Below are positions 8,776 through 32,783 of a DNA stretch of 64,000 bases, in pieces. The position numbers were made by a program, and so were the translations under genes. The notes beneath the pieces are model-generated. The model was not told where the DNA came from and did not search any database. It worked only from the letters and a program-made list of their open reading frames with translations. The DNA is from Nitrospirota bacterium. Its GTDB lineage: Bacteria; JACPQY01. Each line of letters starts with the position of its first letter. The first letter of the stretch is position 1. The stretch is from positions 44,490 through 108,489 of the forward strand of contig JACPAV010000010.1 of assembly GCA_016180645.1 (NCBI GenBank), in the 5' to 3' direction.

Positions 8776-8798
8776 AGGCATGGAGTAAGGTGGGCAAG

Positions 8799-14406: not shown

Positions 14407-14970
14407 TTGAAACGCAGCCGTCTGATTCTGGGGGTGGTCGCGGCCGCGGTGGTGGTCGCCATCGGCATCTATCTCGCCCAGCGGGCCGTTCGCGAAAGGG
14501 GGGAAGCGCCGCCGGTGGCCCAAGCTCCCGCGAAGCCGGCAGGGGAGCCGTCGGCCGTCCCGCCGATGACCCCCATCCCGACGCCGCCTAGACTCCCCGC
14601 GGGCGGAGGAGAGGCAGTGAAAAAACTCATGGAGCGCCCCTTCCCGGAGAATCTGGATCAGGCGTCTCGGGACGTGGAGAGAGACATCCGGGAGGCGTAC
14701 AAGCAGACGACCGGAATGCTGCCGCAGCAGGTGGCCGCCTCCATGGGCGAGAGGGACCCGGAATCACGCCGAAAGATGCTGGAGACATGCAAAGAACTGG
14801 AACGGCAAAATCGGGAAGTCCCACAGCGATACGCCGATTCCCTGGCAGAGTGGAAGCGGATGGAGAAGACTGCGCCGGAGGAAGCCCAGAAGGCCAAGGG
14901 CGGACTCTACATGAGTCTCTATCTGAATCGGCTGAACCATGAATACTGCAAGGGGATTCTCAGGCAATAG
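14407..14970 (+). CDS. Membrane-anchored hypothetical protein with Pro-rich linker
   Basis: About 187 residues starting at TTG 14407, four bases after the PilX-like stop. One N-terminal hydrophobic segment (LILGVVAAAVVVAIGIYLA) is followed by a Pro/Ala-rich stretch and a charged helical domain with two Cys (ETCKELERQNRE ... EYCKGIL). The frame is open upstream, but that part only shadows the PilX-like gene. It shares its layout (single anchor, Pro-rich linker, helical domain) with 16804-17559 on the other side of the DUF2723 gene. Function not recognised. Confidence 0.65.
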   Translation: MKRSRLILGVVAAAVVVAIGIYLAQRAVRERGEAPPVAQAPAKPAGEPSAVPPMTPIPTPPRLPAGGGEAVKKLMERPFPENLDQASRDVERDIREAYKQTTGMLPQQVAASMGERDPESRRKMLETCKELERQNREVPQRYADSLAEWKRMEKTAPEEAQKAKGGLYMSLYLNRLNHEYCKGILRQ

Positions 14971-16807
14971 AGCCGTTGGAGGTTTCTGCGCGGCTGCCTA
15001 CGGGGTGTACTTGGTCCTGCTGCACCCCGATGTGGATTGGGGCGATTCGGGTGAGTTGATATCCGCCGCGCATCTCCTGGCGCCGGCGCACTTCCTGGGC
15101 TATCCCCTCTATGTGATCCCCGCCAAGTTCTTTGCGCTCATGCCCCTGGGCTCCGCGGCCCTCCGTGTCAGCTGGTTTTCGGCACTCCTGGGAACCGCCA
15201 CCTTGGGGGTGCTGATGATGGCGCTGATGCGATCGATCGGAAATCGAGAGTCCGGCTTGGCCGGGCGGATGAAACCGATGGTGCTCTGGGCGGTGGTCGG
15301 CCTGCTGGCGGCCGTGGGTCTCTCCCATGCCTTCATGGGCCAATCAATCCAGGCGGAGAACACACTGCCTGCCTTGCTCCTCTTGGCCTTGGGCCTCTGG
15401 TGCCTGCATGGGTCTGCCGGCGCCCACAGAGTGGGTTACGCCGTTTTCTCGTTCCTGGCCGCGTACCACCCGGCGCTCCTCCCCATTTCGCTCCTGGGCG
15501 GAGGCGTTCTGGCGTCCGGTTTCCCCAATGGCCGGCGACTCAGGGAGTTCGGCTTGTACATGGCCGTTCAAGCGGCCGCCATGAGCGTGAATCTGTTCCT
15601 CCTCGTCCGGTCCCAAGCCTCCGTGCCGCTCTCCTATGCCTTCGCGCGAACTCCCGCCGATTGGCTCTCTACTCTCCAGACCGGTTTTCGGAAATACTAC
15701 GGCTCGGACCTTGTCCCCGTCCTGGCGGTCGATCGCGCCTCGGACTCCATCCAGGTCTTCCTCCCGCAGTTCGCCGCTGTGGTCACACCGCTGGCGCTCT
15801 ACGGACTCTATCGATTGATTCGTCGCTATTTTCGACTCTCCGCCCTGATGATTCCCATGCTCATTCTTTTTTCCGCGTTGGCGCTTCTCAATCCTTCCCA
15901 AGAACGCGAGGGGTACTCGCTGCTGATCGTCGTGGCGCTCCTGTGGCTGACGGGAGCGGGGCTGGTGGGAATCGCCTCCCTCCGGTGGAGACGTCCGGCC
16001 CTCGCCGCCGTACTGCTCATCGGGGCGGGCGGCTGGCTCGCAGCCGCCTTCAACGTGTACGATCTTGCGAGAAAGGGAGTCTCCCAGAGTGAGATCGCCC
16101 GGCGGCTGGGGGAGGAGATTCTTGCGGAACTGGAAGGACGCGCCCTGTATGTCGCCGCAAATGAAAGGCTCGCCCTCGTGACGGAGTACATCCAGTTTGT
16201 CGAATTGCGCCGGCCGGACGTGGTGCTGGCCTATCTCCCGATGTTTTTCACCGAGGGCGGGGCCCGACGGGTGGAGGAGCGGCACCCGGATCTCCTGCCG
16301 CCTTTGGTCCGCCTTCCGGCGGGCCAGTTCTCCTGCGCCCTTCCCCTGTGGGACGTATACGTCTCGCAGCTCGTCGCCCGAAATATCGCTCGATTTCCCA
16401 TTTACACGGAGACCCATGCCGCATGGAGCTTCCCATCGCAGGTGGACGCACGGACGATGTCTGCATTCGTGAGGACGGGGGTTCGTGATTTCCGGGAGTA
16501 CATCTACCTGGCGGCGGACGGTCTGACGGAGCAAAACCTTCCTTATCGATTCCTCCCCTCCAACCCAGTCGGAGGAAAGGAGTTTTCCAGGCGCGGGTTC
16601 CTGTACGCTTTTGGCGGGCCGGTGGCGCCGATTACGAAACGGAAGCTGCTTCGGATTTGGGAGACCGACCGCACCACACCCATCGACGAAGAGGTCTTGA
16701 CTCAGACGCTCTACCAGTGGGCCGCCTATGACTTTGCCAAGGGGCGTTTGAGGGAGGCGGTGGACGGCTATCGCCTGGCGGGCTCCTCCTATCGAAGGAC
16801 CACTTGA
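14939..16807 (+). CDS. DUF2723-family membrane protein (TMEM260-like, putative protein O-glycosyltransferase)
   Basis: A 622-residue polytopic membrane protein. The segment DSGELISAAHLLAPAHFLGYPLYV is close to the DUF2723 signature D-S-G-E-L...H-P-P-G-Y-P-L-Y (here FLGYP). Human TMEM260, of this family, is a protein O-mannosyltransferase with a GT-C fold, so glycosyl transfer from a lipid carrier to an exported protein is a reasonable hypothesis. A soluble C-terminal part follows the last hydrophobic segments. ATG 14939 overlaps the preceding gene by 32 bases. It lies directly between the pilin operon and the GT-C paralogues. Confidence 0.8.
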   Translation: MNTARGFSGNRAVGGFCAAAYGVYLVLLHPDVDWGDSGELISAAHLLAPAHFLGYPLYVIPAKFFALMPLGSAALRVSWFSALLGTATLGVLMMALMRSIGNRESGLAGRMKPMVLWAVVGLLAAVGLSHAFMGQSIQAENTLPALLLLALGLWCLHGSAGAHRVGYAVFSFLAAYHPALLPISLLGGGVLASGFPNGRRLREFGLYMAVQAAAMSVNLFLLVRSQASVPLSYAFARTPADWLSTLQTGFRKYYGSDLVPVLAVDRASDSIQVFLPQFAAVVTPLALYGLYRLIRRYFRLSALMIPMLILFSALALLNPSQEREGYSLLIVVALLWLTGAGLVGIASLRWRRPALAAVLLIGAGGWLAAAFNVYDLARKGVSQSEIARRLGEEILAELEGRALYVAANERLALVTEYIQFVELRRPDVVLAYLPMFFTEGGARRVEERHPDLLPPLVRLPAGQFSCALPLWDVYVSQLVARNIARFPIYTETHAAWSFPSQVDARTMSAFVRTGVRDFREYIYLAADGLTEQNLPYRFLPSNPVGGKEFSRRGFLYAFGGPVAPITKRKLLRIWETDRTTPIDEEVLTQTLYQWAAYDFAKGRLREAVDGYRLAGSSYRRTT

Positions 16808-17559
16808 AAGGCTACCGTACCCTCGTCCTGCTCATAGTGCTCACCACCGTGGTCCTCATCGCGGCGGTGGCCCTCGGCATCCGGTCCCGAAGGGCGCTGC
16901 AGTCACTTCTCCCGGCAGCCACCCCTTCAATTCCGGCGGAAGCCCCCCGTCTGCCCAGTGCGCGGGCGCCCTCGGCTTCAACCCCTCAGGCGGATTCGAC
17001 CCGGCGGACCTGGCCCGTGAGTGAGCCGGAGCCCGAGGGGCGAACGCAGGCGCCCGTCCCCGCGGAAGGCCCGGCCCCGGGGTCGGCCCCTCGCTGGGTC
17101 GTTCCGGGCCCCCCGGCCCCCTTCAGTCTCCCCACGGTGGACTGGGAGGCGCTCATGAACTTTATCGAACGCAGGATCGGCGAAACGGACCTGCGCTCCA
17201 TGCCGCCGCCCGAACCCACGGATGCGGCACTGACGCAGCTCGGGGGACGCCTTGAAGCCGTGGCCAAGAAGGTGGTGGATTCGGACACGGGTCGGGACTT
17301 GGTTGAGTATTACAAGAGCCTGGTCACCCTCGGCAGCATGCCGAGGGCATCCAATTTCACGGCCACCTTGAAAAAATCTCATGAAAAGTTCTTGGAGGAG
17401 GAGGCGGGTAACTACATCAATGTCTCCCAGTACTACAAGCAGATCGGCAAGAACATCGGGCCGGATTGGGAAAGACTCAAAGAGGCCAAGCTGAAGCTCT
17501 GGGTGAACGCCTACGTCCATCTGCTGGCCGCGGACCTCGCGGCTTCACAAGGACAGTAA
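16804..17559 (+). CDS. Membrane-anchored Pro-rich hypothetical protein
   Basis: 251 residues: one N-terminal hydrophobic helix (LVLLIVLTTVVLIAAVALG), then about 90 residues dominated by Pro, Ala, Ser and Glu, then a helical globular domain. TTG 16804 overlaps the DUF2723 stop. No known domain was recognised. The same architecture at 14407-14970 suggests the two could be periplasmic partners of the membrane enzyme encoded between them. Confidence 0.65.
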   Translation: MKGYRTLVLLIVLTTVVLIAAVALGIRSRRALQSLLPAATPSIPAEAPRLPSARAPSASTPQADSTRRTWPVSEPEPEGRTQAPVPAEGPAPGSAPRWVVPGPPAPFSLPTVDWEALMNFIERRIGETDLRSMPPPEPTDAALTQLGGRLEAVAKKVVDSDTGRDLVEYYKSLVTLGSMPRASNFTATLKKSHEKFLEEEAGNYINVSQYYKQIGKNIGPDWERLKEAKLKLWVNAYVHLLAADLAASQGQ

Positions 17560-17575
17560 TCCTCTCCCGGGTACC

Positions 17576-19117
17576 TTGATCCTTCCGTTCTGGATCGTGC
17601 TGGGCGTGGTCTTGCGCCTCCTCGTCGTGCCTCCTGAACCCGGCTTCGATGAGGTGTGGAGGCTTCTTTCGGCCGAAGCACCATGGCCGGATCTCTGGAA
17701 ACGATCGTTGCTCCTGCTCGGAGGCAACCCGGCCTACCCGGCCTTCTTGAAACTGTTTGGAATTGTCGACGAGGTCTCCCCCTGGAGTCGCTGGCCTGGA
17801 ATCCTCGCCTTCATGATGGGCATGTGGATGGCTTGGAGGATTTTTCGCCGTTGGTTCGGAAGTCGCATCGCCCAATGGACACTGGTGGCCCTCGCGCTAA
17901 GTCCCTTCCAAGTGTTCCACGGTGTTTCGTTGAAGGAGTATTCGATCCTTCTGCCGGTCACTCTCTTGGGGACCTGGCTGGGATGGGAAGCCGCGCAGCC
18001 CGGCGGCAGGCGAGGGTGGACGTGGTGCGCGCTTGCCGCGACGGAGGTGCTTGGAGTCCTTCTCGCGTTGCCCACGGCGTGGTTCTGGCTGGCCCTCGGA
18101 ATCGCTCAGGTGATCGTGCATGGCGTGCGCGGATTCCGATGGAGAAGCTGGATGGCGGCCCATGCCCCGGCCGCCCTGCTGGCGGGATGGACCATTGCTA
18201 CGTGGAGCCAGGGCTACCTGCCAGGTTTCCTCCATTTCGGCGGAACCGTCCGAAACGACGTCCTCAAATGGGCGACAGACCTCGTGGTGTACGTGCAGGT
18301 GTGGGTGTGGGATCCGCCGGCCCGCGTTCAACTGGGGCTCAGGGGAACCCCGCTCCCCGGAGGAGTGTTCACGGCCTATCACCTCCTTTGGTTCCTCAAA
18401 CACATCCTGCCATGGCTGCTCGGACTTCCCATCCTTCTCCTCGGCTTCTTCGGCTGGCGGCGCGGCGCGCCCGTGCAACGGAGCAGCGGAGTTCTTGGAT
18501 GGTGCTTCATGCTTGCCGTGGGCCCCGTTCTCGCCTACGGGATCTTTTTCGCGATCCTCGGACATCCCCATCTCATGTACGCTCGGGTATTTTACGGCTC
18601 ATCCCCTTGCTTGTATGTGCTTCTTTCAATCGGCGCTGCCCGGTTGAGTGGAGGCGCGAGGTGGGTGATGGCGCCCATCTTGGGCGCCGCCGGAATATCT
18701 CTGATTCTGATGAGCTTGGGGAGACATCCGGACCAGGAAAGGCCGCTCGGACCGACTCTTCGAAAGTGGGCGTCGGAGCTCGGGAATGGCGAGGTCGCCG
18801 CCGTTTTCCCCTCGGAGGCCTTTCCGTATGTGCGAAAACTCCTCCCGGAACCGGCTCGAGACAGGATCCGTCCGACGGAGATGAGGGCCGCGCGAGCGGA
18901 CCTCTCCTGGGGGCCGACGTTGGTCGACCCCCGATACATCGAGGACTTGTCCTCCTGGAGGGATCCGGATGTTCGTTGGCTCCTGGTTGTCCCGTGGGCG
19001 CTCCATTGGAAGGATCCGGAATTGTCGAGCCTGCAAGACGGGCCGGTCGAATGGGATCTCACCGTCGAGAGACCCAACCTTCGCATCTACCGCCGTCGAC
19101 AGCTGGGGATGCCATGA
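17576..19117 (+). CDS. GT-C-type membrane glycosyltransferase paralogue 1
   Basis: 513 residues with about ten hydrophobic helices. The first luminal loop carries PGFDEVWRL (D25-E26), in the position of the catalytic acidic pair of GT-C enzymes such as ArnT. Family landmarks follow: LLGGNPAYPAFLKLF, ALSPFQVFHGVSLKEYS, PHLMYARVFYG, and a soluble tail with HWKDPEL...PNLRIYRRR. These recur in five more genes up to 30202. GT-C enzymes use polyprenyl-phosphate sugars. TTG 17576 is the apparent start, with no clear Shine-Dalgarno. Stop and next ATG overlap (ATGA). Closest relative in the window by eye: the next gene. Confidence 0.75.
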   Translation: MILPFWIVLGVVLRLLVVPPEPGFDEVWRLLSAEAPWPDLWKRSLLLLGGNPAYPAFLKLFGIVDEVSPWSRWPGILAFMMGMWMAWRIFRRWFGSRIAQWTLVALALSPFQVFHGVSLKEYSILLPVTLLGTWLGWEAAQPGGRRGWTWCALAATEVLGVLLALPTAWFWLALGIAQVIVHGVRGFRWRSWMAAHAPAALLAGWTIATWSQGYLPGFLHFGGTVRNDVLKWATDLVVYVQVWVWDPPARVQLGLRGTPLPGGVFTAYHLLWFLKHILPWLLGLPILLLGFFGWRRGAPVQRSSGVLGWCFMLAVGPVLAYGIFFAILGHPHLMYARVFYGSSPCLYVLLSIGAARLSGGARWVMAPILGAAGISLILMSLGRHPDQERPLGPTLRKWASELGNGEVAAVFPSEAFPYVRKLLPEPARDRIRPTEMRAARADLSWGPTLVDPRYIEDLSSWRDPDVRWLLVVPWALHWKDPELSSLQDGPVEWDLTVERPNLRIYRRRQLGMP

Positions 19118-20676
19118 AGCGCGCGGCCCTGCTCGTGGTTCTCTTCATGTTGGGAGCCGGCGCGCGCGCGTTGTGGCTCCGGAGGGAGCCGACATTCGAT
19201 GAGGTGTGGCGGCTTGAGGCGGCGAAAGCAAATGGGAGCGCCCTGTGGGGCGCCTCGGAGAAGCTGTTGGGTGGGAACGTCTTGTACCCGGCGGCCCTGA
19301 AGCTGTTTGGGATCAGGTCCAAGGAAGGAGTGCGCCCCACACTCGTCATGCTGGCCGCCTTGAGCGCATCGATGGTCATGAGCTACCTCGTCTTCCAATC
19401 CATGTTCGGACGGAGGGTGGCCACGGGGACGACGGCGCTGGTGGCCCTAAGCCCATTCCAGGTTGTCCATGGCGGTGAGCTGAAGGAGTATTCCCTCTTG
19501 CTCCCCTTCGCGCTCATGGCGGTCTGGGCGGGTTGGGGGTCATGCAGACCCAACGTGCGCCATCGGACATGGGTGCTCCTGTCCCTCTCAGAGACCGCGT
19601 GTGTGGGGTTGGCACTGCCCTCCGCCTATTTCTGCGCTGGATTGGGGCTGACTCAAGCGGTACTGGGCGGACGGGGTCTGTCGTGGACGAAATGGTTTCT
19701 GGCCCATCTCCCCCCCGCGCTTCTGTGCTTGAGCCAAGTCTGGGGCTGGCCCCCCGGCTATGAACGAGGTTTCCTGAACTTTGCCGTGAGCATGGACAAT
19801 GGCCCGTTGAAGCTCGCTTCCGACGTGCTCTTCAACGTTGAGTTCTGGCTTTGGTCTCCCACCGTCGTCGAATGGCAACGGCTCTCGCATGAGCCGATGT
19901 TCGGAGGACTCGTGAATGCCGGTGCCTTCGTCCGGTTCCTCAGGGATGTCCTTCCGTGGTTCTTGGGACCTCCGGTGATCTTTGGAGCGATCGCTGGGGT
20001 CGTCCACTCTGGTCGCGGCCATGAACGGGAGGGGGGGAGGGCCGCGCTGTATTGCGGTCTCGTATCATTCATGCCGATCATCGCATACTTCGCCATCTTC
20101 GCGATTCGCGGCGCCCCACACCTGTTCCACCCTAGATCCTTCATGGCGGTAACTCCGGCGCTATACGCACTTCTTGTTCTTGGACTTCTCTCGCTCTCCG
20201 GATTAATGAGAGGGATCGCTCTTGGTGCCCTTGTGTGCGGACTGTTTCTGTCCTTGGCTCTCTTGCTGACGGGGAAGCATCCATCGCTTCTTCCCGATGC
20301 ACGCCCCCTTCTCAACCGGGCGTACGAGGGGATGGGAGAGGGGAATGACGTGTGGGTGTACCCAAGCGAAGCCTATCCCTACGTGCTGCATCTTTCTCCC
20401 CCACCCGTACGCCCCCGGTTGCATCCCCTCAACCTCGATCCCAGACGGACGCGACCGGGTTGGGTCCCGACGCTCTTTAACGGCGCGTATCAGGAGGATT
20501 TTACCTTACTGGAGGGGGTGGCGGGGAACCCAGGGCTTATGGTAGTCACTTGGGCCCTGTACTGGCGAGATCGGGACTTGAAGCGGCTCGAGACGACACT
20601 CCACGGATGGGATCTCGTGGAGTCCCAACCCAACCTCAGATTCTACCGGCGCCTCAGCTCGCCCCGGGGGAGCTAG
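19114..20676 (+). CDS. GT-C-type membrane glycosyltransferase paralogue 2
   Basis: 520 residues, overlapping paralogue 1 by four bases. Landmarks: PTFDEVWRL (D29-E30), LLGGNVLYPAALKLFG, ALSPFQVVHGGELKEYS, PHLFHPRSFMA, and the tail YWRDRDL...PNLRFYRRL. EVWRL, KLFG and SPFQV are shared with paralogue 1, so this pair looks like the product of a recent tandem duplication. The last 171 bases overlap the minus-strand radical SAM gene; the conserved tail shows that this frame is real up to its stop. Confidence 0.75.
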   Translation: MKRAALLVVLFMLGAGARALWLRREPTFDEVWRLEAAKANGSALWGASEKLLGGNVLYPAALKLFGIRSKEGVRPTLVMLAALSASMVMSYLVFQSMFGRRVATGTTALVALSPFQVVHGGELKEYSLLLPFALMAVWAGWGSCRPNVRHRTWVLLSLSETACVGLALPSAYFCAGLGLTQAVLGGRGLSWTKWFLAHLPPALLCLSQVWGWPPGYERGFLNFAVSMDNGPLKLASDVLFNVEFWLWSPTVVEWQRLSHEPMFGGLVNAGAFVRFLRDVLPWFLGPPVIFGAIAGVVHSGRGHEREGGRAALYCGLVSFMPIIAYFAIFAIRGAPHLFHPRSFMAVTPALYALLVLGLLSLSGLMRGIALGALVCGLFLSLALLLTGKHPSLLPDARPLLNRAYEGMGEGNDVWVYPSEAYPYVLHLSPPPVRPRLHPLNLDPRRTRPGWVPTLFNGAYQEDFTLLEGVAGNPGLMVVTWALYWRDRDLKRLETTLHGWDLVESQPNLRFYRRLSSPRGS

Positions 20677-22170
20677 GTCGGGAGGGGAGTGCGGTGGGGC
20701 CTGAAGGATCCTCAGCGCGGCGGGATTGAGGTTTCCGCGGTCTTTCAGAAGCATGAGCTTCAAAGTGGTCCAAGCCAGTTCGGGGAGGTGGGATTTCCGT
20801 GGATGATGGCGGACGATTCCCAGGAGTCGGCGGGCGTCCAGGTAGAATTCCCGGTAGGCCTCGGCCTGAAGCCGGTACAACCGATCCGTCGAAATCGCGC
20901 TCAGATTGAATCGTGAATGAAAGTACTCGAAATCCCTGAACGAAGGCTTCTGTGCGCCGGGCTGGATTCGATACCAGTCCCCGAGCGCCGTTCCCGCAAA
21001 GGGGGTGACGATGAAAAACATGGCCTGGGTGAGCGGCGACCGGACGGCGAAGTCAATCGTCGATCGGATCTCATCCTCGGTCTCGGACGGGAAACCCAGC
21101 ATGAAGAAACCGTTCGTGAAAATACCGAGTCTCACCGATTCCTCGATCGTCCACTTCACGCGGTCCAGCTTGAGGTTTTTCTTGATCATGAGTTGCAATC
21201 GGGGCGTGACCGTTTCCACGGCCACGCAGAGGTACTGACAGCCGGCCTCCTTCGACTTTTCGAGGAACTCACGGTCCATCCGATCGCAGCGGAGGCCGTT
21301 GGGAAAGTGAATCGCCGTCCCAGGACCGCGGGAAGCGATCCCGTCCAGAATGGTCTTGCCTCGACTCAGATCCCAGTTGAAAATATCGTCGACGATTTCA
21401 AAGTCCTTGATGCCGTAGCGTCCGATGATCTCATCCACTTCGGCGAGCACGTTGTCCGGAGATCGGGGGCGGAAGTCCTTCCCGAAGTTCTCGTGGCAAT
21501 ACGTGCATCGGTACGGACACCCGCGCGAGGTGAAGAGGGCCATGTAGGGGCGACGGCCCATGGTGCTCATGCTCTTGAGGCTCCCATAGGCATGCACGTC
21601 AACCAGATCCCACGCCGGGAAGGGAAGGGCATCTAGGTTCTCAATGGCATTCCGGCGCTTGGAGAAGAATACTCCTTTATCCCGTCGGAAGGCGATTCCA
21701 TCCGTATCTTCCGGTCGCCCTCCTCCGAACCACTGCTCGACGAATTCGTGGAAGGTTTTCTCGCCCTCACCGATGCACAGGTAGTCGATCCGAGGGTCGG
21801 ACAGGACTTCCCTGGGGTAGGACGAGGCGTGCGGACCCCCGACGATCACGGGAGTATCCGGGCAGCAGGCTTTGACTTGCGCCGCCGCCCAGTGCATCGC
21901 CGTAGCCTCGGCCGTCAGGGCACTCAACCCAACCAAGTCCGGTCTGAAGTCACGCAAAGTGTCGACCAATTCGCCGTACGGATGCTGATCGTAGCCAACA
22001 TCGACAATTCGTACTTCGTGATGCGAATGCAGCCTCAAATAGGAAGCGAGATACATGAGCCCGAGAGGGGGCGTCATTCCGAAATTGTTGGGCGTGAGAT
22101 AGCGCGCCTTGGCAAGTAGAATTTTCCCCACTTCAGGAATCAAAGTACCAGATCGACGCAATGTTGACAA
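20506..22170 (-). CDS. B12-binding-domain radical SAM protein
   Basis: 554 residues. An N-terminal cobalamin-binding Rossmann domain (GLMYLASYLR ... PDLVGLSALT ... VIVGGPHAS ... LCIGEGE) is followed by a radical SAM core with CPYRCTYC (CxxxCxxC) preceded by TSRG. This class includes methylases of lipids and natural products (for example HpnP-like) and BchE-like enzymes; the substrate is unknown here. The longest start is TTG 22170; GTG 22131, just before KILLAKARYL, is a strong alternative. The last about 57 residues run antisense into GT-C paralogue 2 and have a low-complexity Pro-rich look, so the natural stop may have been lost. Confidence 0.82.
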   Translation of the reverse strand: MSTLRRSGTLIPEVGKILLAKARYLTPNNFGMTPPLGLMYLASYLRLHSHHEVRIVDVGYDQHPYGELVDTLRDFRPDLVGLSALTAEATAMHWAAAQVKACCPDTPVIVGGPHASSYPREVLSDPRIDYLCIGEGEKTFHEFVEQWFGGGRPEDTDGIAFRRDKGVFFSKRRNAIENLDALPFPAWDLVDVHAYGSLKSMSTMGRRPYMALFTSRGCPYRCTYCHENFGKDFRPRSPDNVLAEVDEIIGRYGIKDFEIVDDIFNWDLSRGKTILDGIASRGPGTAIHFPNGLRCDRMDREFLEKSKEAGCQYLCVAVETVTPRLQLMIKKNLKLDRVKWTIEESVRLGIFTNGFFMLGFPSETEDEIRSTIDFAVRSPLTQAMFFIVTPFAGTALGDWYRIQPGAQKPSFRDFEYFHSRFNLSAISTDRLYRLQAEAYREFYLDARRLLGIVRHHPRKSHLPELAWTTLKLMLLKDRGNLNPAALRILQAPPHSPPDLAPPGRAEAPVESEVGLGLHEIPSVECRLEPLQVPISPVQGPSDYHKPWVPRHPLQ

Positions 22171-24013: not shown

Positions 24014-25555
24014 ATGTCCCTCCCACCTGCCGTCCGAGCGTTGCTGATCTGGATGCTGGGCATGAGTCTCCGCCTCCCCCTTCTAGGGCGGGAACTGAAC
24101 CTCGATGAGATAAAAAGATGGCAATCGGCGACGGGTCCGCTGGGGGAGCTGTGGGATCGGTCGATCATCCTGCTGGGGGGGAATCCACTCTATTCGCTGT
24201 TTCTTAGACCGTTTTCGGGACTGGAACCGACCGTGTGGATCCGGCTACCCGGATTATTGGCTGGGGCCATGGTTGCGCCGTTGGCCTACGCGATTCTGAG
24301 GAAGAATTTCGGCGAACGGATTGCATTGGGTTCGGCTGCGATACTGGCCTGCTCGCCGTTCCAGGTCGAGCAGGGCGCCCTCCTGAAAGAGTATCCTCTG
24401 GCCCTTGTCCCCGAGACCCTGACGTTGTGGTTTGCGGCAAGACTGGTGGCCGTAGGAGGCGGCCCCGGGCTTTGGGCGGCCATCGCCGCGGCCGAAACGG
24501 TTTCCGTTTGGTTGTCGCTCCCCTCGATCTTCGTTTGGGGTGGGCTGGCGGCGGCCTTGCCCCTGGCGTGGCATCGAACCAAGAAGTTCCCCTGGGGCCA
24601 TTGGCTTTGCAGTCAAACCCCTGTGCTTGCGTCTGGGATCGTGACCGCCTTGAGTTGGCCGCATGGAAACGAAGCAGGTTTTCAGCAGGTCGTCGGGCGG
24701 CTGCACCTCGATCCTCTTTCGCTCGCGGCGCAAGAATTGACCGGCCTGGCCGCGTGGTATCCGAATCTGGATGTACGCTTACAAGACTTTCTGACCGCAA
24801 TGAATTGGGCGGATGCCTACGGGCATTTCGAGGGGATCATCAAGATTGTCTATTTTCTTGCCAAGATTGGCCTCGGGGGAGGAGTCGTCATTCTTGTTCT
24901 GAGGGCCTGGACTCGATATAGCGATAGCGCGCCGCTGAAGCTTTTCGCATGGACGGTGGGGTTGGCCCCCTTCCTCTATTACATCGCGTTCCTCGCGCGT
25001 GGCTACGGCCATCTTTACTTGCCTCAGGCGTTCCTCGCTTCATCCATGGGGCTGACCACGCTTCTCGCCGCCGGGTTCGAGGCGCTATCGTCCCCATGGA
25101 AGAGGATTATCGGATTGGGGTTGGGGGCGGCCTCCGTGCTGTCGCTGTTGACGCTCTTGGCTGGCGTGTGGCCCCACCCCTACCGCCCCGTCCGGCCCCT
25201 CCTGAGCCGACTGCCGCACGGTACGCCTGCATGGATTTACCCTGCCGACGCGGTGCACTACATCCGTTACAACGCGCCCCCGCCTAGGAGGAAATCCATC
25301 CGTTCTCTCGGGCCGACCGCGCTGGAGAGGCCGGACACGTGGAAACCGATTTTTGAAATCGCCTCACGGCAAGTCGCGAGGGAAGCGCTTCGAAAACTGC
25401 CGAGGGGGGAGGCCGCGCTTGTGGCCGTGAGGTCCTACCTGCAATGGAGCGATCCGGACCTCGCTGCGGTGGATCCATGCAGATGGGCGCTCGACGCGCA
25501 AGATGGGGACGTGTGGATCTTCAAATCCACGCCACCCAAGGAGAAGTGCCCATGA
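24014..25555 (+). CDS. GT-C-type membrane glycosyltransferase paralogue 3
   Basis: 513 residues. The acidic pair is in ELNLDEIKRW (D31-E32). Other landmarks: LLGGNPLYSLFLRPF, ACSPFQVEQGALLKEYP, GHLYLPQAFLA, and a tail with QWSDPDL. It is first of four head-to-tail GT-C genes after the radical SAM pair. It is intermediate between pair 1-2 (SPFQV) and pair 4-5 in its motifs. ATG 24014 lies 156 bp from the previous stop, so it may start a transcription unit running to 30930. Stop overlaps the next ATG. Confidence 0.75.
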   Translation: MSLPPAVRALLIWMLGMSLRLPLLGRELNLDEIKRWQSATGPLGELWDRSIILLGGNPLYSLFLRPFSGLEPTVWIRLPGLLAGAMVAPLAYAILRKNFGERIALGSAAILACSPFQVEQGALLKEYPLALVPETLTLWFAARLVAVGGGPGLWAAIAAAETVSVWLSLPSIFVWGGLAAALPLAWHRTKKFPWGHWLCSQTPVLASGIVTALSWPHGNEAGFQQVVGRLHLDPLSLAAQELTGLAAWYPNLDVRLQDFLTAMNWADAYGHFEGIIKIVYFLAKIGLGGGVVILVLRAWTRYSDSAPLKLFAWTVGLAPFLYYIAFLARGYGHLYLPQAFLASSMGLTTLLAAGFEALSSPWKRIIGLGLGAASVLSLLTLLAGVWPHPYRPVRPLLSRLPHGTPAWIYPADAVHYIRYNAPPPRRKSIRSLGPTALERPDTWKPIFEIASRQVAREALRKLPRGEAALVAVRSYLQWSDPDLAAVDPCRWALDAQDGDVWIFKSTPPKEKCP

Positions 25556-27099
25556 CCCGTGAGGGCGGTCCGCACTCCCCCGGCGTACCCGCTTGGGTGT
25601 GGGGCGCTGCCGCTGCGAGCGGTCTCGTGGCAGTCTACCTGGCTACCACACAGGACCTTTCATTTGACGAGGCGAACCGCTGGTTTCTTTCGCAAAGACC
25701 TCCGGCGGAAATCGTCCGCCTCAACGTCAATATCACTCAGGGGAACGAGCTGTTCCTTCTCTTCCTCCACGGGGCGGGTGCGGTCGTGTCGTCTCCCCGC
25801 TTCTGGAGGCTTGTCAGCCTCCTGGCCCACGTCGCGGCGGTGACTCTGTCCTGGCGGATTTTCAGTGAACATTCCGTCCGGACCGCCGGCTTCGTTGCCC
25901 TCTGGATCGCCGCCTCGCCCCTACACCTCTCGGAAGCCTATGATCTGAAGGAATACAGCCTTGGCGTCCTCCTGGGATTGGGGATCGTGCATTTCTCGGC
26001 GCCGGGGCGCACAACCTCGCTGACGAAGGTTGCGCTGCTGGGTTTGGTGGAGGCGGCCGGGACCGGTGTTACACTTGCGATGTCTCCGTTCTGGGGTGCG
26101 GTCGCCCTTGGCCAAATATGGCTCCAGCCGGGAAAATGGGGTCGGAAAGGGTTGGTTCTCCTGCTCCAGCATCTACCCATGGCCCTCCTCACGGCCTTCA
26201 CGCTTTGGAGATGGGACCCACGATACAAGCCGCTTTTCCGGGTGATGAATGGTGAAATCGTCCGGAACGACCCCTTGAGAATCATTGGTGATTTCTTTGC
26301 CCACGTCTACGTCTGGTCGGGCCTTCCGGGTACGCCGGATGTGAGTCCGTGCGGCTCTCCACCACCGGAATGGTTCTGGCCGGTTTTGGGGATGGGTGCC
26401 TGGGTGGTCGGTGGATCCCTCTTTGTCCTGATCGGGGCCGGCATGGCGGGGCGGGGTGGGAACGACGGTCGGCGACTTGTCCTCTGGTGGGGGTGGCTCG
26501 GTCTGGCTCCCCTCGGTATCTATTATCTTGGATCGCTCCTGCTTGGCTCCCCGCATGTGTACCCGAGTCGAATGTATCTGGCGGCTTCGCCGTTCGTCTT
26601 CGGGGCGGTGGGCGTGGGGATAAGCGCGCTGCCAAAGGCTCTCGGGGCGATCCTGTTCGCGCCGGCCGCCGTCAGTGCCGTTCTCATGATGGGCCTGCTG
26701 ATTTTCGGGCATCATGCCGCTCAGCCCGACCGATTGAAGCGACTTCTCTCGCCATATTCCTCATCCCTCGAACCCCGCGATCCAGTCTACGTCTACCCTG
26801 GCGTGGCCTTTCATCAGGTATTGAGCAATGCGCCCGGGGTGTGGAGGGAACATCTGCGGGCGGTCGGGAACAACATTCTTGAAGAGCCGCTGGGTGACGG
26901 CTCCCTGGTGGCACCCGCCCATGAGAATGAGTTGTCGGTTTGGGCGGACCAACTCTCGTCTCCGGAACAGGGATGGTTGATCCTGTATCCCCAGTTCCTG
27001 ATCGTGCGGGATCCCGCCCGGAGTGTCTTGCGCCGCTCGGGAAAAGAGTGGAGATTGGCGGGGTGCAACCGAACGGCCGCTCTCTACCGGACGCCGTGA
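25552..27099 (+). CDS. GT-C-type membrane glycosyltransferase paralogue 4
   Basis: 515 residues; ATG 25552 overlaps the previous stop and has AAGGAGA about six bases upstream. Landmarks: DLSFDEANRW (D39-E40), ITQGNELFLLFLHGAG, ASPLHLSEAYDLKEYS, PHVYPSRMYLAASPFVF, tail VRDPARSVLRRSGKEW. The NELFLL, SPLH, EAYDLKEYS and ASPFVF words are shared only with paralogue 5, marking a second young tandem pair. Donor and acceptor unknown. Confidence 0.75.
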   Translation: MTREGGPHSPGVPAWVWGAAAASGLVAVYLATTQDLSFDEANRWFLSQRPPAEIVRLNVNITQGNELFLLFLHGAGAVVSSPRFWRLVSLLAHVAAVTLSWRIFSEHSVRTAGFVALWIAASPLHLSEAYDLKEYSLGVLLGLGIVHFSAPGRTTSLTKVALLGLVEAAGTGVTLAMSPFWGAVALGQIWLQPGKWGRKGLVLLLQHLPMALLTAFTLWRWDPRYKPLFRVMNGEIVRNDPLRIIGDFFAHVYVWSGLPGTPDVSPCGSPPPEWFWPVLGMGAWVVGGSLFVLIGAGMAGRGGNDGRRLVLWWGWLGLAPLGIYYLGSLLLGSPHVYPSRMYLAASPFVFGAVGVGISALPKALGAILFAPAAVSAVLMMGLLIFGHHAAQPDRLKRLLSPYSSSLEPRDPVYVYPGVAFHQVLSNAPGVWREHLRAVGNNILEEPLGDGSLVAPAHENELSVWADQLSSPEQGWLILYPQFLIVRDPARSVLRRSGKEWRLAGCNRTAALYRTP

Positions 27100-28634
27100 A
27101 GCCCTCGGGCACTATCCCGAAGGTGGTGATGGCCGCGGCTGTCTTGTCCTGCCTGCTCGCGTGCAGATTGGCATTCCGCGAAGAACTCAGCCCGGACGAA
27201 ATCCACCGCTGGCTGCTCGCCCAACTTCATCCGAGGGACATGTTTCAAATGGCGCGGAGCATCACCGGCGGCAACGAGCTCTTCCTCCTCATGACGAGGG
27301 TATTCGTGGCGATCCACTGGTCCCCCCTCGCGGTGCGGGTTGCCAATGTGCTGATCCATGGCCTGACGGTTCTCCTGGCGTACCGTTGGTTCAGTGCATG
27401 GTTGGGCCGGCGCGTGGCGGGATTCGTGGCCATCTGGATCGCAGGGTCGCCCCTTCATGTCTATGAAGCATACGACCTCAAGGAATACAGCGGTGCGGTG
27501 TTGATCGGTCTGTGGGCGGTCCGGCTGGGCCTGGAGTCCCCGGAGCCGGCTCTGAAGCGGTCCATCCAACTCGGCTTGATCCAGATGGCCGGCACGGCCT
27601 TTACGCTGACGTTGGGACCGTTTTGGGGGGCATACGCGGTGACGCAATGTCTCACGGCGCAAAAGCGTTCAAGAAGATGGATGGCCCTGATGGTCCTTCA
27701 GCACGCTCCTTGGATCCTCATCGGGCTTCTGACCCTCCATCGGTGGGATGCGGCATATCGGCCCATCTACTTCAGCCTCCATGCGCAGGCGCTGAGCAGC
27801 AATCCCCTCAAGATCGTGGCCGACTTCTTTTCCCACGTCTACTTGTGGGTGTGGCTGCCTTGGGCCCAGCAGCCTGTCGAATGCGTCCCTCCGATGGCTC
27901 ACTGGCTGTCGAACGGTTTCGCGATTGGACAGTGGGTGATTGGAGGGCCGCTCCTTCTGGCCTTTTTTTGGCCCTCGAACACCCATCGGCAGGAGAAGGA
28001 TTTGCCTGCGGCGAAGTGGTGCTACCACTTGCCTATCTGGCACCTGGCCCTGTATCTTGCCGCTACGGGCATCATGGGAAGTCCGCATTGGTACATTCCC
28101 CGTGTGTACCTCGCCAGTTCCCCATTCGTATTCGCCCGCATCGCGGCAACCCTCGGAGAGCGGAAAGTCGGGTGGAGAATCGTCATGCTTGTGCCGGCGG
28201 CGCTCGCTGCCTTGGTTTCCATGATTGGGCTTGTCCGAGGGACCCACCCGTCACAGCTTCCCTCGCTACGCAAGTCTCTCCAGTCCGCGCAGGGGGAACT
28301 TCAAGGCGTGGGGCCGATCTACATTTATCCCGGCACGGGATTCCACTATGTTCAGACCTACGCGCCTCCTGATGTTCGCAGCCGCCTTCGACCGGTGTGG
28401 AAGGACGTGATCGAGGACCCCTCAGGGTGGGGCACGATCCTGGCACCGATCTCCCCGGAGGAAAAAGCCCGATTCAAGGCTGAACTTACCGGCCAAGAGG
28501 ACGCTTGGCTCATAGGGCTGCCGGACCTTCTCTCCTTCCGGGATCCGCACCTCAGCATCATGCAGTCGAGCGGGAGACAATGGAAAACGCTCTCATGTTC
28601 TTCGCACCTGCTGCTGTACCGCAGTCTGCCATAG
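27096..28634 (+). CDS. GT-C-type membrane glycosyltransferase paralogue 5
   Basis: 512 residues from GTG 27096, which overlaps the previous stop (GTGA); a longer in-frame upstream extension only shadows paralogue 4. Landmarks: ELSPDEIHRW (D34-E35), ITGGNELFLLMTRVF, GSPLHVYEAYDLKEYS, PHWYIPRVYLASSPFVF, tail FRDPHLSIMQSSGRQW. Very similar in layout to paralogue 4. Confidence 0.75.
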   Translation: MKPSGTIPKVVMAAAVLSCLLACRLAFREELSPDEIHRWLLAQLHPRDMFQMARSITGGNELFLLMTRVFVAIHWSPLAVRVANVLIHGLTVLLAYRWFSAWLGRRVAGFVAIWIAGSPLHVYEAYDLKEYSGAVLIGLWAVRLGLESPEPALKRSIQLGLIQMAGTAFTLTLGPFWGAYAVTQCLTAQKRSRRWMALMVLQHAPWILIGLLTLHRWDAAYRPIYFSLHAQALSSNPLKIVADFFSHVYLWVWLPWAQQPVECVPPMAHWLSNGFAIGQWVIGGPLLLAFFWPSNTHRQEKDLPAAKWCYHLPIWHLALYLAATGIMGSPHWYIPRVYLASSPFVFARIAATLGERKVGWRIVMLVPAALAALVSMIGLVRGTHPSQLPSLRKSLQSAQGELQGVGPIYIYPGTGFHYVQTYAPPDVRSRLRPVWKDVIEDPSGWGTILAPISPEEKARFKAELTGQEDAWLIGLPDLLSFRDPHLSIMQSSGRQWKTLSCSSHLLLYRSLP

Positions 28635-30202
28635 CCCGCCCGGTGGTGGGTTCAGCGGATCGGCGTTTTCTCCTCGGGCTTGTGCTGCTCTCTTCAACCG
28701 TCGGCGGTGTGCTTGCGTTCAAGATGGATCTAAGTGTGGACGAATTGCATCGTTGGGAACTGGCGGGTGGCAATTGGGGGGACCTTTGGGACGGGAGCAG
28801 GAGAATCCTTGGCGGCAACGTTCTCTATGTGGCATGGCTGAAGATCCTCCGGGGTTTTTCCATTTCCCCCCAAGCGGCTCGTTTGATTGGATTACTGGCG
28901 CATGCGGCGGCCATCCCGCTGTGGTTCACCTGGGTTCTCGCGCGGCTTGGCCGGATGCCGGCGCTTCTATCTTCGGCATGGATGGCGGCATCTCCTCTAC
29001 ATGTCTTTGAATCCTACCCCTTGAAAGAAACATCTCTTGTATTCCCCTTCGTGCTTTGGACGCTCACGGTGGGGCTGGGTAAACGCTTGCGCTGGAGTCG
29101 CGTGGCGCTTCTCGCCCTGGCCGAGGCATTGATCGTAGGCTTCTCGTTGACGGCAGCGCCGGTTTTCGCGGCCGCGTTCATGGCCAGGTTCCTCTCGACA
29201 AGGCGTCTCGATGTTCGATCGATTCTCCAACCTCTGCCGATGCTCGTGGTGGGAGCGCTCACGGTGTTCACGTGGGATCCGACATTTCGAGAATCTTTCA
29301 CCCTCTTCGCCTCCCGAATGTCACACGACCCGATCGCGCTGTTGATCGACCTGGTGGCCGATGTCGAGGCTTGGCGGTGGGTGGAGTTGGCCCGATCGAA
29401 TCCATTTCCGTGCTCCGCGCCTCCAAGTGAAACGGCCTTGTGGGTCATGCGCGGGGTGGAGGTTTCGACCGGAGGGTGCCTCCTTGCCCTGCTCGCGCGA
29501 GGTCTGGGCGGCGGTACCGCCGGGTTTGGACGGGGGCCGGTTCTTCCTTTTGCCTGCCTCGCCTTCCTACCCTTGCTCTTCGAAGGCGCCGCTTCCGCCT
29601 TGAGAGGGCATTTCGTTCTCTACCAGGCGCGGGGGTTTCTCTATGCCACTCCCTTCCTCTATGCGATCCTTGCACAAGGGGTGACGAGAGGACCGGCGGA
29701 TGGGTGGAGAAGATGGAGCGTCTTGGCGGCGCCGTTGCTGCTCCTATCGCTGGGAGCGTACGCCATGGCCCTGGCCGGGTTTCACCCGCACACCCTGCGC
29801 CCCTTGGGAGCATGGGATCGCAAAGTGAAGGAGTCCATCGGCGACCAAGGTCGAATCTTCGTTCACCCGTCCATCTACGCGCGCTACATTGCGATGAATG
29901 GGGGCGCTGCGCTACGCAGGAGAAGCCTGCCCTTGGGGCCGGAACCGCTCGCCAGCCCCCAGGGTTGGCTGACTTTGATGTCTCCGCTTGATGAAATGGA
30001 GTGGCGTTCGATCACAAGCCCTTTGACTCGAAATGACCACGTCCTGGTTCTCGCCGCGGGTCTGCCTTGGCGGGATCCCCATTTCCAACTGGGCAGGGAT
30101 TCATGCCGCGAATGGAGCCTGGAATGGTGCGATTCGAGAATGGCCATCTACGGGATCGTGGCGGAGACGCCGAGTTGCACACGTCAGCCGGCCGACCGGT
30201 GA
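28580..30202 (+). CDS. GT-C-type membrane glycosyltransferase paralogue 6
   Basis: 540 residues from ATG 28580, which has GGGAG just upstream but overlaps paralogue 5 by 55 bases. GTG 28643 or 28646, just past the previous stop, would place the acidic pair about 33 residues from the N-terminus, as in the other paralogues, and is a serious alternative. Landmarks: DLSVDELHRW, ILGGNVLYVAWLKIL, ASPLHVFESYPLKETS, GHFVLYQARGFLYATPF, tail WRDPHFQLGRDSCREW. LKEYS has become LKETS, the largest departure in the family. It runs into the GT2 gene without a gap. Confidence 0.72.
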   Translation: MENALMFFAPAAVPQSAIARPVVGSADRRFLLGLVLLSSTVGGVLAFKMDLSVDELHRWELAGGNWGDLWDGSRRILGGNVLYVAWLKILRGFSISPQAARLIGLLAHAAAIPLWFTWVLARLGRMPALLSSAWMAASPLHVFESYPLKETSLVFPFVLWTLTVGLGKRLRWSRVALLALAEALIVGFSLTAAPVFAAAFMARFLSTRRLDVRSILQPLPMLVVGALTVFTWDPTFRESFTLFASRMSHDPIALLIDLVADVEAWRWVELARSNPFPCSAPPSETALWVMRGVEVSTGGCLLALLARGLGGGTAGFGRGPVLPFACLAFLPLLFEGAASALRGHFVLYQARGFLYATPFLYAILAQGVTRGPADGWRRWSVLAAPLLLLSLGAYAMALAGFHPHTLRPLGAWDRKVKESIGDQGRIFVHPSIYARYIAMNGGAALRRRSLPLGPEPLASPQGWLTLMSPLDEMEWRSITSPLTRNDHVLVLAAGLPWRDPHFQLGRDSCREWSLEWCDSRMAIYGIVAETPSCTRQPADR

Positions 30203-30930
30203 GCAGGACCATGCCGCGCACCCTCTCGATTATCATCCCTGCGTTCAATGAGGAATCCAGTATCGAAGAGGTAATCCGAAGGGTGGAACGGGTGGATATT
30301 GCATTCCTGGGCGTTGAAAAGCAGATCGTCGTGGTCGACGACGGCTCCACGGATGGCACCGTCTCGAAGGTGAGGTGTTCCGGAAGGGTCTCAGTCGTTC
30401 GGCATCCGCATCGCCGAGGAAAGGGAAGCGCCATCCGGACCGGGCTGGCGCATGCAACGGGTGATCTTGTCCTCATTCAAGACGCGGACCTGGAGTACGA
30501 TCCTTCCGACTACCCATGCCTTCTGGATCCCATGCTGAAGGGTGCCGCCCGCGTGGTATATGGCTCCCGATTTCTGCTGAGGCGACGTCCGGAGGGAATG
30601 CGGCTCGCGTTCCTGGGGGCCAATCGTATCCTGACCCTTCTCGCGAATGTTCTCTATGGCGGCCGCCTTACGGACATGACCACGTGTTACAAGCTGTTTC
30701 GTACGGAGGATCTGCGCGCGATGGACATCGAGGCTGAAGGATTCGAGTTCTGTCCCGAGGCCACGGCGAAATTGAAAAGAGCGGGGGTAGACATCATGGA
30801 AGTACCAGTCTCGTACCAAGCCAGGCAGTCGAAGGGAGGGAAAAAGCTCAGGTGGTGGGATGGTCTCGCCGTTGTCAAGTCGCTTTTCGAGTGGCGCTTC
30901 CGAAGGGTCGCGTCAATTGCACGCGCCTGA
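30199..30930 (+). CDS. GT2 glycosyltransferase, dolichyl/polyprenyl-phosphate sugar synthase-like
   Basis: 243 residues (GTG 30199 overlapping the previous stop; ATG 30211 also possible). GT-A fold with LSIIIPAFNEE, VVVDDGSTDGT, the DxD-like QDADLEYDPSDY, and VYGSRF, the DPM1/GtrB pattern. There is no C-terminal membrane segment, as in soluble DPM1-type enzymes. Such enzymes make polyprenyl-phosphate sugars, the donors used by GT-C enzymes. Being last in the same operon as four GT-C genes, it is the natural donor-maker for them; the sugar is unknown. Its 3' end overlaps the opposing glycosyltransferase gene by 56 bases. Confidence 0.85.
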   Translation: MSRTMPRTLSIIIPAFNEESSIEEVIRRVERVDIAFLGVEKQIVVVDDGSTDGTVSKVRCSGRVSVVRHPHRRGKGSAIRTGLAHATGDLVLIQDADLEYDPSDYPCLLDPMLKGAARVVYGSRFLLRRRPEGMRLAFLGANRILTLLANVLYGGRLTDMTTCYKLFRTEDLRAMDIEAEGFEFCPEATAKLKRAGVDIMEVPVSYQARQSKGGKKLRWWDGLAVVKSLFEWRFRRVASIARA

Positions 30931-32008
30931 ATTCCAGTTCGTACGCGTCGGCCACGGCTTCCCAACAATAGAGGCGAAGGGCGCGGTCACGGGCGACCGC
31001 ACGGCGGCGAACGGACGACTGCCCATCGCGGATGGCCTCCTGAATTACACCGAGGAGGCTCCTGGAGGTTTTCTGATAGTAGAGTCCATCCTCGCCCAGG
31101 ACTTCTCGGTTAAATGGATTGTCGAGAGCGGCGACCTCGCATCCGGAGGCCATGGCTTGGATGAGGGCCGGATTTGTCCCCCCGACCTCGCATCCGTGAA
31201 TATAGATCCTAGAGTTGCACCGCAATTCCTGAAGTACTCCCGGATCGTATATGGGGCCGAGGAAGTGGATTCTACCATTGGCATACCGATGTAGCTGCGT
31301 CACGTATCGGCTCCGATAGGATGCCCACCCTACCACCGCAAGTTGGAGAGGCGAGGGGGCAGAGGCCCACGCTTCACACGCCAGGAGCACATTGTTTTCC
31401 GGCTCGAGCCGCGTGACGATCAGGCCATAGCTTTGCGGAGTAAGGTGGAAATGGTTCGCCAGCAAGGCCGCATTGCGGGACGACTCCGGAACCGCTCCGT
31501 ACGGGATGTAGGAGGAATCGGCAAAGTATGTGGATCGATAATAGTCGGCCAATACCTTGGAATCGCAGACAAGGACCTGGCTCCACTTGGCGCATGATCG
31601 GGCGCTCCACCGGTAGTAAGCCTTGGAAGTCGGCCCCCATTTGGCCCTAAGCCAATCCATCCCCCCCACGTTTGTAACAACGGGTATGCCAAAGGCATTC
31701 AAGAGAAGAATAAGCGGTGCATGCGCCACGTTGAAAAGAAGGACCGCGTCCGGCTTCTCGCGAACTACATGTGGGAGGGCGAGAACGGTTGCGGATAAGA
31801 TGTGGAGGTGCTTGGTCGGTATGCTGGGCATGTGCCGAAGCCGAACTCCGAGGTGCTCCTGGGGACGATCCGGGTACAGGCTCCTGTCACAGAATACAGT
31901 TACTTCATGCCCCCGGGCCACCAGCCTGGCAGATACTTCCTGGGCACACATCTCCATCCCGCCGTACCGGCAAGGGATGCCTTTTGTGCCGAGAATGGCA
32001 ATCTTCAT
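30875..32008 (-). CDS. GT4-family glycosyltransferase with DUF1972 N-terminal domain
   Basis: 377 residues. The N-terminus MKIAILGTKGIPCRYGGMEM fits the DUF1972 type often annotated as rhamnosyltransferase. The C-terminal GT-B half has GLIVTRLEPENN, VVGWASY and the donor-site motif HGCEVGGTNPALIQAMASG. Predicted cytosolic enzyme for polysaccharide or glycolipid building. ATG 32008 is eight bases from the stop of the upstream GT2 gene on the same strand (32016-32783), so the two form an operon. Convergent overlap with the plus-strand GT2. Confidence 0.87.
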   Translation of the reverse strand: MKIAILGTKGIPCRYGGMEMCAQEVSARLVARGHEVTVFCDRSLYPDRPQEHLGVRLRHMPSIPTKHLHILSATVLALPHVVREKPDAVLLFNVAHAPLILLLNAFGIPVVTNVGGMDWLRAKWGPTSKAYYRWSARSCAKWSQVLVCDSKVLADYYRSTYFADSSYIPYGAVPESSRNAALLANHFHLTPQSYGLIVTRLEPENNVLLACEAWASAPSPLQLAVVGWASYRSRYVTQLHRYANGRIHFLGPIYDPGVLQELRCNSRIYIHGCEVGGTNPALIQAMASGCEVAALDNPFNREVLGEDGLYYQKTSRSLLGVIQEAIRDGQSSVRRRAVARDRALRLYCWEAVADAYELEFRRVQLTRPFGSATRKAT

Positions 32009-32015
32009 GCCGGTC

Positions 32016-32783
32016 TCAGCGCTCGGAGGTCAGCGGTCGAGCCGGGAAGGTCCTGCTCAACGCGCGCAGGGATCCAACGGCCCTATATTCTCGAACAATG
32101 GTGAGCAGAAACCTGGCGCCTTGGGTCGGGATATGAAGCTTGGAACGACCGATCCGGGCGCGTGCCTGAATGTGCATTTCGCCTATTCTGATTCCTCGTG
32201 CGACGGCCCGGAGTGTCATCGCGAGGCCGTAGTCAAAACCGTCCGGCAACGTGCCCACCTCTTCCAAGAACCCCCGCCTGAAGGACCTCATCCCGGAAGT
32301 GGGATCAATCAGGCGATGGTCGTACAGCAACGTGATGGCGGCTCTAAACAAGCGGTTCCCCAATTTTCGAATAGGGTCCAGATGACCGGAAAAGTCTCCA
32401 TAGCGGGCACCGATTACCAGTTCGGCATCTGAACTCAGGGTTTCTTGGACAAGAGCAGAGAGCGCCCCAGGTGGGTAGGAGTGGTCGCCGTCCAGCATGG
32501 CCAAGACGGTTCCTCGAGCGGCCGCAAATCCAGTCCGCAGAGCAGCGCCGTATCCCCGTCGGTGCGGGTGCCGAAGGACGCCGACCCCCGTGAGGCTGGA
32601 AAGGACATCGGCGGTCCCGTCGTCCGACCCGTCATCGATAAGCAGTACTTCCGTTGAACGGATCTTGGGTAAAGACCGAAGAATGATCTCGCATGCCGCA
32701 AGAGTTTCCTCAACGACAAAGTGTATGGCTCTTGCTTCATTGAAGACCGGGATGACGATGGATAGCTGATCCCTACCTTTCAC
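32016..32783 (-). CDS. GT2 glycosyltransferase (polyprenyl-phosphate sugar transferase type)
   Basis: 255 residues with LSIVIPVFNEAR, LLIDDGSDDGTADV, LAMLDGDHSYPP (DxD region) and VIGARYGDFSG, a second DPM1-like enzyme. HPHRRGYGAALRTGF parallels HPHRRGKGSAIRTGL of the enzyme at 30199-30930, so the two are related but oriented oppositely. No membrane helix was seen. It is the first gene of a two-gene minus-strand unit with the GT4 enzyme. Confidence 0.85.
   Translation of the reverse strand: MKGRDQLSIVIPVFNEARAIHFVVEETLAACEIILRSLPKIRSTEVLLIDDGSDDGTADVLSSLTGVGVLRHPHRRGYGAALRTGFAAARGTVLAMLDGDHSYPPGALSALVQETLSSDAELVIGARYGDFSGHLDPIRKLGNRLFRAAITLLYDHRLIDPTSGMRSFRRGFLEEVGTLPDGFDYGLAMTLRAVARGIRIGEMHIQARARIGRSKLHIPTQGARFLLTIVREYRAVGSLRALSRTFPARPLTSER

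Follow-up and report, generated by a model that had tools for sequence, protein, structure and literature searches.

A 64,000-nucleotide stretch of a Nitrospirota draft genome (contig JACPAV010000010.1 of assembly GCA_016180645.1, positions 44,490 to 108,489; hereafter the window) encodes a minor-pilin operon that ends in a DUF2723/TMEM260-like candidate protein O-glycosyltransferase and runs on into an array of six paralogous glycosyltransferases of the GT-C class. The 4.7-Mb draft genome, in which the window is part of contig C10, comes from an uncultured groundwater-type bacterium. Slightly better than even, in our judgment, are the chances that it holds two neighbouring modules: a pilin operon with its own TMEM260-like O-glycosyltransferase, and a GT-C array. 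The DUF2723 enzyme probably coats the pili with sugar. We compared the locus with a sample of 386 genomes, in which only one, G001, a sister genus, belongs to the same family as the source genome.

The pilin operon is encoded on the plus strand. It opens with a type IV pilin-like protein bearing a GFTLIEL motif (7662..8219, N_methyl 6.7e-9) and a divergent pilin-like protein (8254..8775) that has no N_methyl motif by pattern search and matches a G001 pilin weakly in tblastn (26%). A type IV minor pilin (8706..9284, N_methyl 5.5e-6), a PilV-like minor pilin (9425..10129, N_methyl 2.8e-7) and a PilW-like minor pilin (10012..10941, true start near 10150, N_methyl 1.5e-5) follow, and four of the window's minor pilins score above the N_methyl cut-off. 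The next gene encodes a PilX-like exported protein of 1153 amino acids that is rich in cysteine (48 Cys) and matched no Pfam family (10941..14402). The operon then encodes an anchored Pro-rich protein (anchor1, 14407..14970), the DUF2723 protein (14939..16807) and a second anchored Pro-rich protein (anchor2, 16804..17559). Both anchors contain about 10% proline and one transmembrane-like segment each. Upstream, outside the window, are genes for PilM and the secretin PilQ.

The order of these genes is kept in the sister genus. Contig C50 of G001 (JACPQY010000063.1, Nitrospirae bacterium isolate NC_groundwater_665) carries PilV (46% identical), PilW (34%), PilX (52% over 1208 columns), anchor1 (28%), DUF2723 (33-36%) and anchor2 (24%) in the same order as the window. 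The order PilX-anchor1-DUF2723-anchor2 is thus retained although the DUF2723 proteins of the two genera are only about 33% identical. In G001, two genes of major-pilin-like type are immediately preceded by a gene, divergent from the minor pilins and 5' of them, for a 786-amino-acid membrane protein with C-terminal tetratricopeptide repeats (TPRs; L027:16270-18627) that may be another pilin-linked membrane glycosyltransferase.

Pairs of pilin and DUF2723 genes also recur in distant lineages. DUF2723 proteins occur in 169 of the 386 genomes; their loci were ranked by how closely they resemble the proteins of the window and of G001, and 20 on longer contigs were examined. Pilins were called by sequence pattern, with a Pfam check in one case and a coordinate check in another (G130). 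Among these 20 most window-like loci, a pilin gene lies within 5 kb of DUF2723 in eight, within 2.5 kb in seven and within 1 kb in six, often adjacent and on the same strand; two of the eight pilin-linked loci are from one family. Pilins were near none of 19 random regions of such genomes, and of the 20 control loci with a PMT-like GT-C just one had a pilin, at a distance of about 8 kb, an excess at DUF2723 loci over the pooled controls with a Fisher p of 4e-4. By coordinates, further pairs occur in at least three genomes (G058, G033, G310). No fewer than eight GTDB families besides that of the source genome have a pilin gene about 2 kb or less from a DUF2723 gene. Two of the pilin-DUF2723 loci have an NtrC-type sigma-54 activator of the PilR kind 3' of the pilin, and other pilin-linked loci have a T2SSF gene or a TMTC-like GT-C gene with TPRs nearby. 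On the DUF2723 tree, pilin linkage requires five changes, and the linked proteins fall into two or more separate regions with good support. The short flanks of other DUF2723 loci added nothing. The pilin-DUF2723 association is real, but confined to part of the family. An earlier note on this DNA had tied DUF2723 to the pilin operon, and both the gene order in the sister genus and the recurrence of the pairs bear this out. In one distant genome, a TMTC-like GT-C gene with TPRs (L111:11516-13228) is placed between a DUF2723 gene and two pilin genes.

The window DUF2723 protein matches PF11028 at 44.4 bits (cut-off 24.2). Its N-terminal motif, DSGELI...HFLGYPLY (residues 36-58), includes the DxGE module (residues 36-39) and is kept in G001; D36, G38, E39, H51, G54-P56 and Y58, including an H-x-x-GYP-x-Y stretch, are invariant in both genera. 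The Pfam family and the N-terminal DxGE module are shared with human TMEM260, which is assigned to CAZy family GT117 and is an O-mannosyltransferase for receptor IPT domains (PMC11292533). Defects in this human family member cause disease (PMC11043032). The window enzyme differs from TMEM260 in its presumed targets, which are pilins or PilX rather than receptor IPT domains, and in its C-terminus, where Pfam detected no TPR; three pilin-linked DUF2723 relatives do have TPR matches. No match to the window protein was found on a plasmid. The part of the literature covered by our search yielded no paper naming DUF2723 and no function for a bacterial DUF2723 protein.

A second DUF2723 gene closes another operon in both genera, behind three large Cys-rich exported proteins (source contig C3, L022:8777-19267; G001 contig C44:18053-28374, L017/L018). 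The exported proteins are 48, 41 and 45% identical between the source genome and G001, and the second DUF2723 proteins 32%. In the family tree, the second-operon pair is sister to the pilin-operon pair, which points to one duplication before the genera split and hence to two enzymes. Across both genera, each paralogue has kept its own exported neighbours.

Several observations weigh against a pilin-directed DUF2723 enzyme. The 60 best DUF2723 loci by Pfam ranking all lack a nearby pilin, which shows that the family is not restricted to pilins, and the matches listed for a second set of genomes gave only three new pairs, a lower bound. The structure model of the window protein, built on two sequences, reaches a predicted local distance difference test score (pLDDT) of 37. 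G001 is the only other genome of the phylum-level group available for comparison, and gene linkage is not equal to activity.

Past anchor2, the window encodes the GT-C array. GTC_A (17576..19117) and GTC_B (19114..20676) come directly after the pilin operon, and GTC_C (24014..25555), GTC_D (25552..27099), GTC_E (27096..28634) and GTC_F (28580..30202) follow after two radical SAM genes, all six on the plus strand. The six proteins are paralogues that align to GTC_A with 25-39% identity, and no further copy of the family was found elsewhere in the source genome. GTC_A passes the PMT_2 cut-off of 26.1 bits (28.9), GTC_B and GTC_C fall below it (GTC_C slightly, at 24.5) and GTC_D, GTC_E and GTC_F have no match. 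The model of GTC_A (pLDDT 75, predicted TM-score 0.79) retrieves ArnT (1.2e-6), oligosaccharyltransferase (OST), ALG12 and AftA from the PDB in Foldseek, and gives structural Z scores of 18-21 against Pmt4 (21), OST and ArnT (18.6). It shares with ArnT, Pmt4 and OST the GT-C fold and the acidic pair of the first loop, but sequence identity to them is only 8-14%. The expectation that all six would fold as GT-C enzymes holds directly for GTC_A, the one modelled, and by homology for the other five.

D25, E26, R29, G50, N51 and E121 are kept in all six GT-Cs. The acidic pair D25 and E26, in the first extracytoplasmic loop, is also invariant in the G001 member, and D25, E26, G50 and E121 are at least 90% conserved across all 11 members of the family. 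In a tree of these 11, GTC_A and GTC_B are sisters, GTC_D and GTC_E are sisters and GTC_F joins the latter pair. Chromosomal neighbours are thus nearest kin, indicating tandem duplication.

In the two other genomes with this GT-C family, it does not accompany a pilin operon. In G001 it is absent 3' of anchor2, where a convergent gene encodes a 1905-amino-acid exported DUF11/SBBP-repeat protein. We checked whether a G001 GT-C island lies further downstream and found one distant GT-C-like open reading frame (ORF) past this gene, otherwise beta-propeller, cytochrome and other genes. The sole clear G001 member of the GT-C family is on a different contig, C44, followed by a UbiA gene and a convergent GT4 gene whose product shares 49.6% identity with its window counterpart; the corresponding slots in the window hold GTC_F, GT2a and GT4. 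Two pairings are thus conserved, GT-C with GT4 and pilin with DUF2723, and both occur together only in the window genome. The G001 GT-C (L018:9018-11633) has about 370 extra C-terminal amino acids without a Pfam match, which we read as an alpha/alpha-toroid. The UbiA protein was considered as a maker of a polyprenyl-phosphate-pentose donor and rejected, its closest families being geranylgeranylglycerol-phosphate and chlorophyll synthases.

G289, a distant genome and the third with the family, encodes four GT-Cs on short contigs without pilins. They form a separate group in the 11-member tree, consistent with an independent expansion in G289. A GTC_A search in a collection of 84,980 species found no related locus. 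The GT-C family is found without pilins in both other genomes available, an outcome that the earlier note itself had named as refuting its reading, and the note's single island of GT-Cs, radical SAM proteins and pilins is not conserved in the sister genus. To judge from the sequences, the GT-C array is a separate, recently expanded and separately moving module that joined the pilin operon only in the window genome.

Two predicted donor synthases lie at the 3' side of the array. GT2a (30211..30930, plus strand; PF00535) and GT2b (32016..32783, minus strand; PF00535) resemble dolichol-phosphate-mannose synthase (PDB 5mlz, 1e-18 and 1e-11) and are predicted polyprenyl-phosphate sugar synthases, both DPM1-like; GT2a has no transmembrane segment. 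Between them is a GT4 glycosyltransferase with Pfam GT4 domains (30875..32008, minus strand). The combination of a cytoplasmic donor synthase with a GT-C enzyme is shared with the three-component systems (GtrA/GtrB/Gtr*, GT136). The window differs from these in its six GT-C paralogues, its added radical SAM proteins and the absence of a recognised flippase, Pfam scans limited to the island proteins having detected neither GtrA nor MATE. The sister-genus UbiA protein also differs from these systems in not being of the phosphoribosyl type.

The two radical SAM proteins, rSAM1 (20506..22170, minus strand) and rSAM2 (22226..23857, plus strand), have B12-binding (PF02310) and Radical_SAM (PF04055) domains and an intact CxxxCxxC motif. 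Neither reaches the cut-off of an NCBIfam equivalog (HpnJ, ApyD and others); rSAM1 scores 157 bits against 750 and rSAM2 123.5 against 577.6. A 33% identical homologue of rSAM2 in G289 adjoins two tandem GT-Cs and a methyltransferase. The closest rSAM2 homologues in other genomes are away from this GT-C family, and the genomes compared carry many B12 radical SAM genes. That such genes generally track the GT-C family was considered, but apart from a clear instance in G289 and a looser one in G036 it is unsupported. Modification of a lipid-linked sugar by these proteins is possible; methylation of lipid or sugar, as the earlier note had it, is a guess. In another genome, going by coordinates, a DUF2723 gene and a B12 radical SAM gene are immediate neighbours on the same strand (G025:C115:61371-63517).

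Could the array be unrelated to the pilus? The GT-Cs, together with the GT2, GT4 and radical SAM enzymes, may build an envelope polysaccharide or lipoglycan and have come to lie beside the pilins by chance rearrangement, an alternative that we regard as a serious one, if somewhat short of an even chance. It would explain why the family lies apart from pilins in G001 and G289, and why a four-member expansion arose independently in G289, where two of the GT-Cs adjoin a B12 radical SAM gene and a methyltransferase. GT-Cs are dense in the source genome in any case (17 genome-wide PMT_2 matches, compared with 2 for G001), so they have multiplied generally in this lineage, which raises the odds of accidental proximity to pilins. 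The closest described gene sets are side-chain systems of a cytoplasmic polyprenyl-phosphate-sugar synthase, a flippase and a GT-C (PMC11127046).

The junctions in the window and the neighbourhood in G001 argue for a connection. GTC_A starts 16 bp past anchor2 and overlaps GTC_B by 4 bp, because of which both probably share a transcript with the pilin genes. The single G001 GT-C also adjoins a DUF2723 operon, the second one, such that in each genus the family neighbours a DUF2723 operon, though not the same one. No other finding hints as strongly that the two kinds of enzyme work together, and a link to DUF2723 glycosylation is possible; the G289 genome, in which GT-Cs are present and no DUF2723 was found, weighs against such a partnership.

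Less likely, in our estimate, is that the DUF2723 enzyme acts on many exported proteins and that its place in the pilin operon reflects shared envelope expression without pilin specificity. This would fit the 60 top-ranked loci without pilins, the action of the human family member on Ig-like domains (PMC11292533) and the three DUF2723 genes of the source genome, one of which adjoins housekeeping-type genes. The pilin pairs in separate parts of the family tree and the different exported partners that the two paralogues keep across genera speak for dedicated enzymes instead.

The earlier note saw one run from pilins to glycosyltransferases and a single pathway by which the pilins or PilX receive a methylated glycan of several sugars. 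We consider this view of the whole island improbable. It draws on the contiguity and tight junctions in the window genome, the catalytic acids kept in all six GT-Cs and the presence of two predicted donor synthases. There is also precedent in Pseudomonas aeruginosa, whose pilin glycosyltransferases TfpO and TfpW are encoded beside pilA (PMC11841053). As described there, a membrane glycosyltransferase encoded next to a pilin gene modifies that pilin (PMC11841053). These enzymes are of unrelated families and add arabinofuranose or O-antigen units, whereas the pilin-linked enzyme of the window is a DUF2723/TMEM260 relative ending a minor-pilin operon. A conserved GT-C/pilin linkage of the TfpW type was not seen in G001, with its GT-C on another contig, or on the short G289 contigs.

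The gene content described in the earlier note stands, but not the single run. The junctions are tight. PilX and anchor1 are 4 bp apart, anchor1 and DUF2723 overlap by about 30 bp and DUF2723 and anchor2 by 4 bp, so that every junction from PilX through GTC_B is an overlap or a gap of at most 16 bp; C/D, D/E and E/F also overlap. The minus-strand genes for rSAM1, GT4 and GT2b, the divergence of rSAM1 and rSAM2 and the convergence of rSAM1 on GTC_B (171-bp overlap) indicate at least four transcription units. This arrangement implies about four predicted units (pilins through GTC_A-GTC_B; rSAM1; rSAM2-GTC_C-D-E-F-GT2a; GT2b-GT4). Scans of the locus for promoters and terminators gave signal at about the level of shuffled sequence. 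Such division, the lack of conservation in the sister genus and the pilin-free GT-C/radical SAM pair of G289 all count against one pathway.

Finally, DUF2723 and the anchors might lack transferase activity and serve as accessory proteins in pilus assembly. The divergence of the window protein (44 bits, where other members reach up to 243) and the example of TfpY, which lies beside pilA and aids assembly rather than glycosylation (PMC11841053), would allow this, but it is very unlikely given that both genera keep the H-x-x-GYP-x-Y stretch and the acids of DxGE.

We therefore return to two neighbouring modules. The following proposal for activities, donors, acceptors and sites builds on gene content, gene order, conservation, one GT-C fold and the recurrence of the pilin-DUF2723 pair. 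The first module would be the minor-pilin operon, ending in a dedicated DUF2723 enzyme of GT117 type with two membrane-anchored partners. With a polyprenyl-phosphate sugar as donor, the membrane-embedded enzyme would glycosylate Ser/Thr residues of pilins, or of the PilX-like protein, awaiting assembly in the periplasm. GT2a and GT2b may make polyprenyl-phosphate sugars in the cytoplasm that are then flipped, and the six GT-Cs, diverged in specificity, could each contribute one residue to a glycan of the cell surface, part of which GT4 and the B12 radical SAM proteins would supply or modify. Being probably read with the pilin operon, GTC_A and GTC_B may extend the glycan that DUF2723 initiates; GTC_C to GTC_F and the radical SAM proteins may serve a different acceptor. 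The claim that the glycan is placed on pilins thus gains support for the DUF2723 enzyme, and decoration of the pilin by the GT-C island is unproven.

Just 5' of the pilins, the window encodes a nucleotidyltransferase and HEPN-like pair (5800-6743) and a PIN-domain-like ORF (7164-7547), both probably toxin-antitoxin genes by sequence reading only. On source contig C53 (L021:17483-19283), ORFs contain runs of the repeated peptide SSPDPKAGRN, suggesting a CRISPR-like repeat array.

More broadly, we speculate, at a little under even chances, that bacterial DUF2723 proteins include substrate-dedicated O-glycosyltransferases encoded with their exported targets, and that the GT-C array elongates the sugar here. 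If so, the targets would be pilins in many lineages and giant Cys-rich exported proteins in this one. Pilin glycosylation would then gain another kind, and human TMEM260 a possible ancestral state in bacteria. The recurrent pilin-DUF2723 pair makes the gap in bacterial DUF2723 function directly testable in cultured carriers, and pilin glycosylation, which shapes phage susceptibility, would widen beyond the few enzyme families known.

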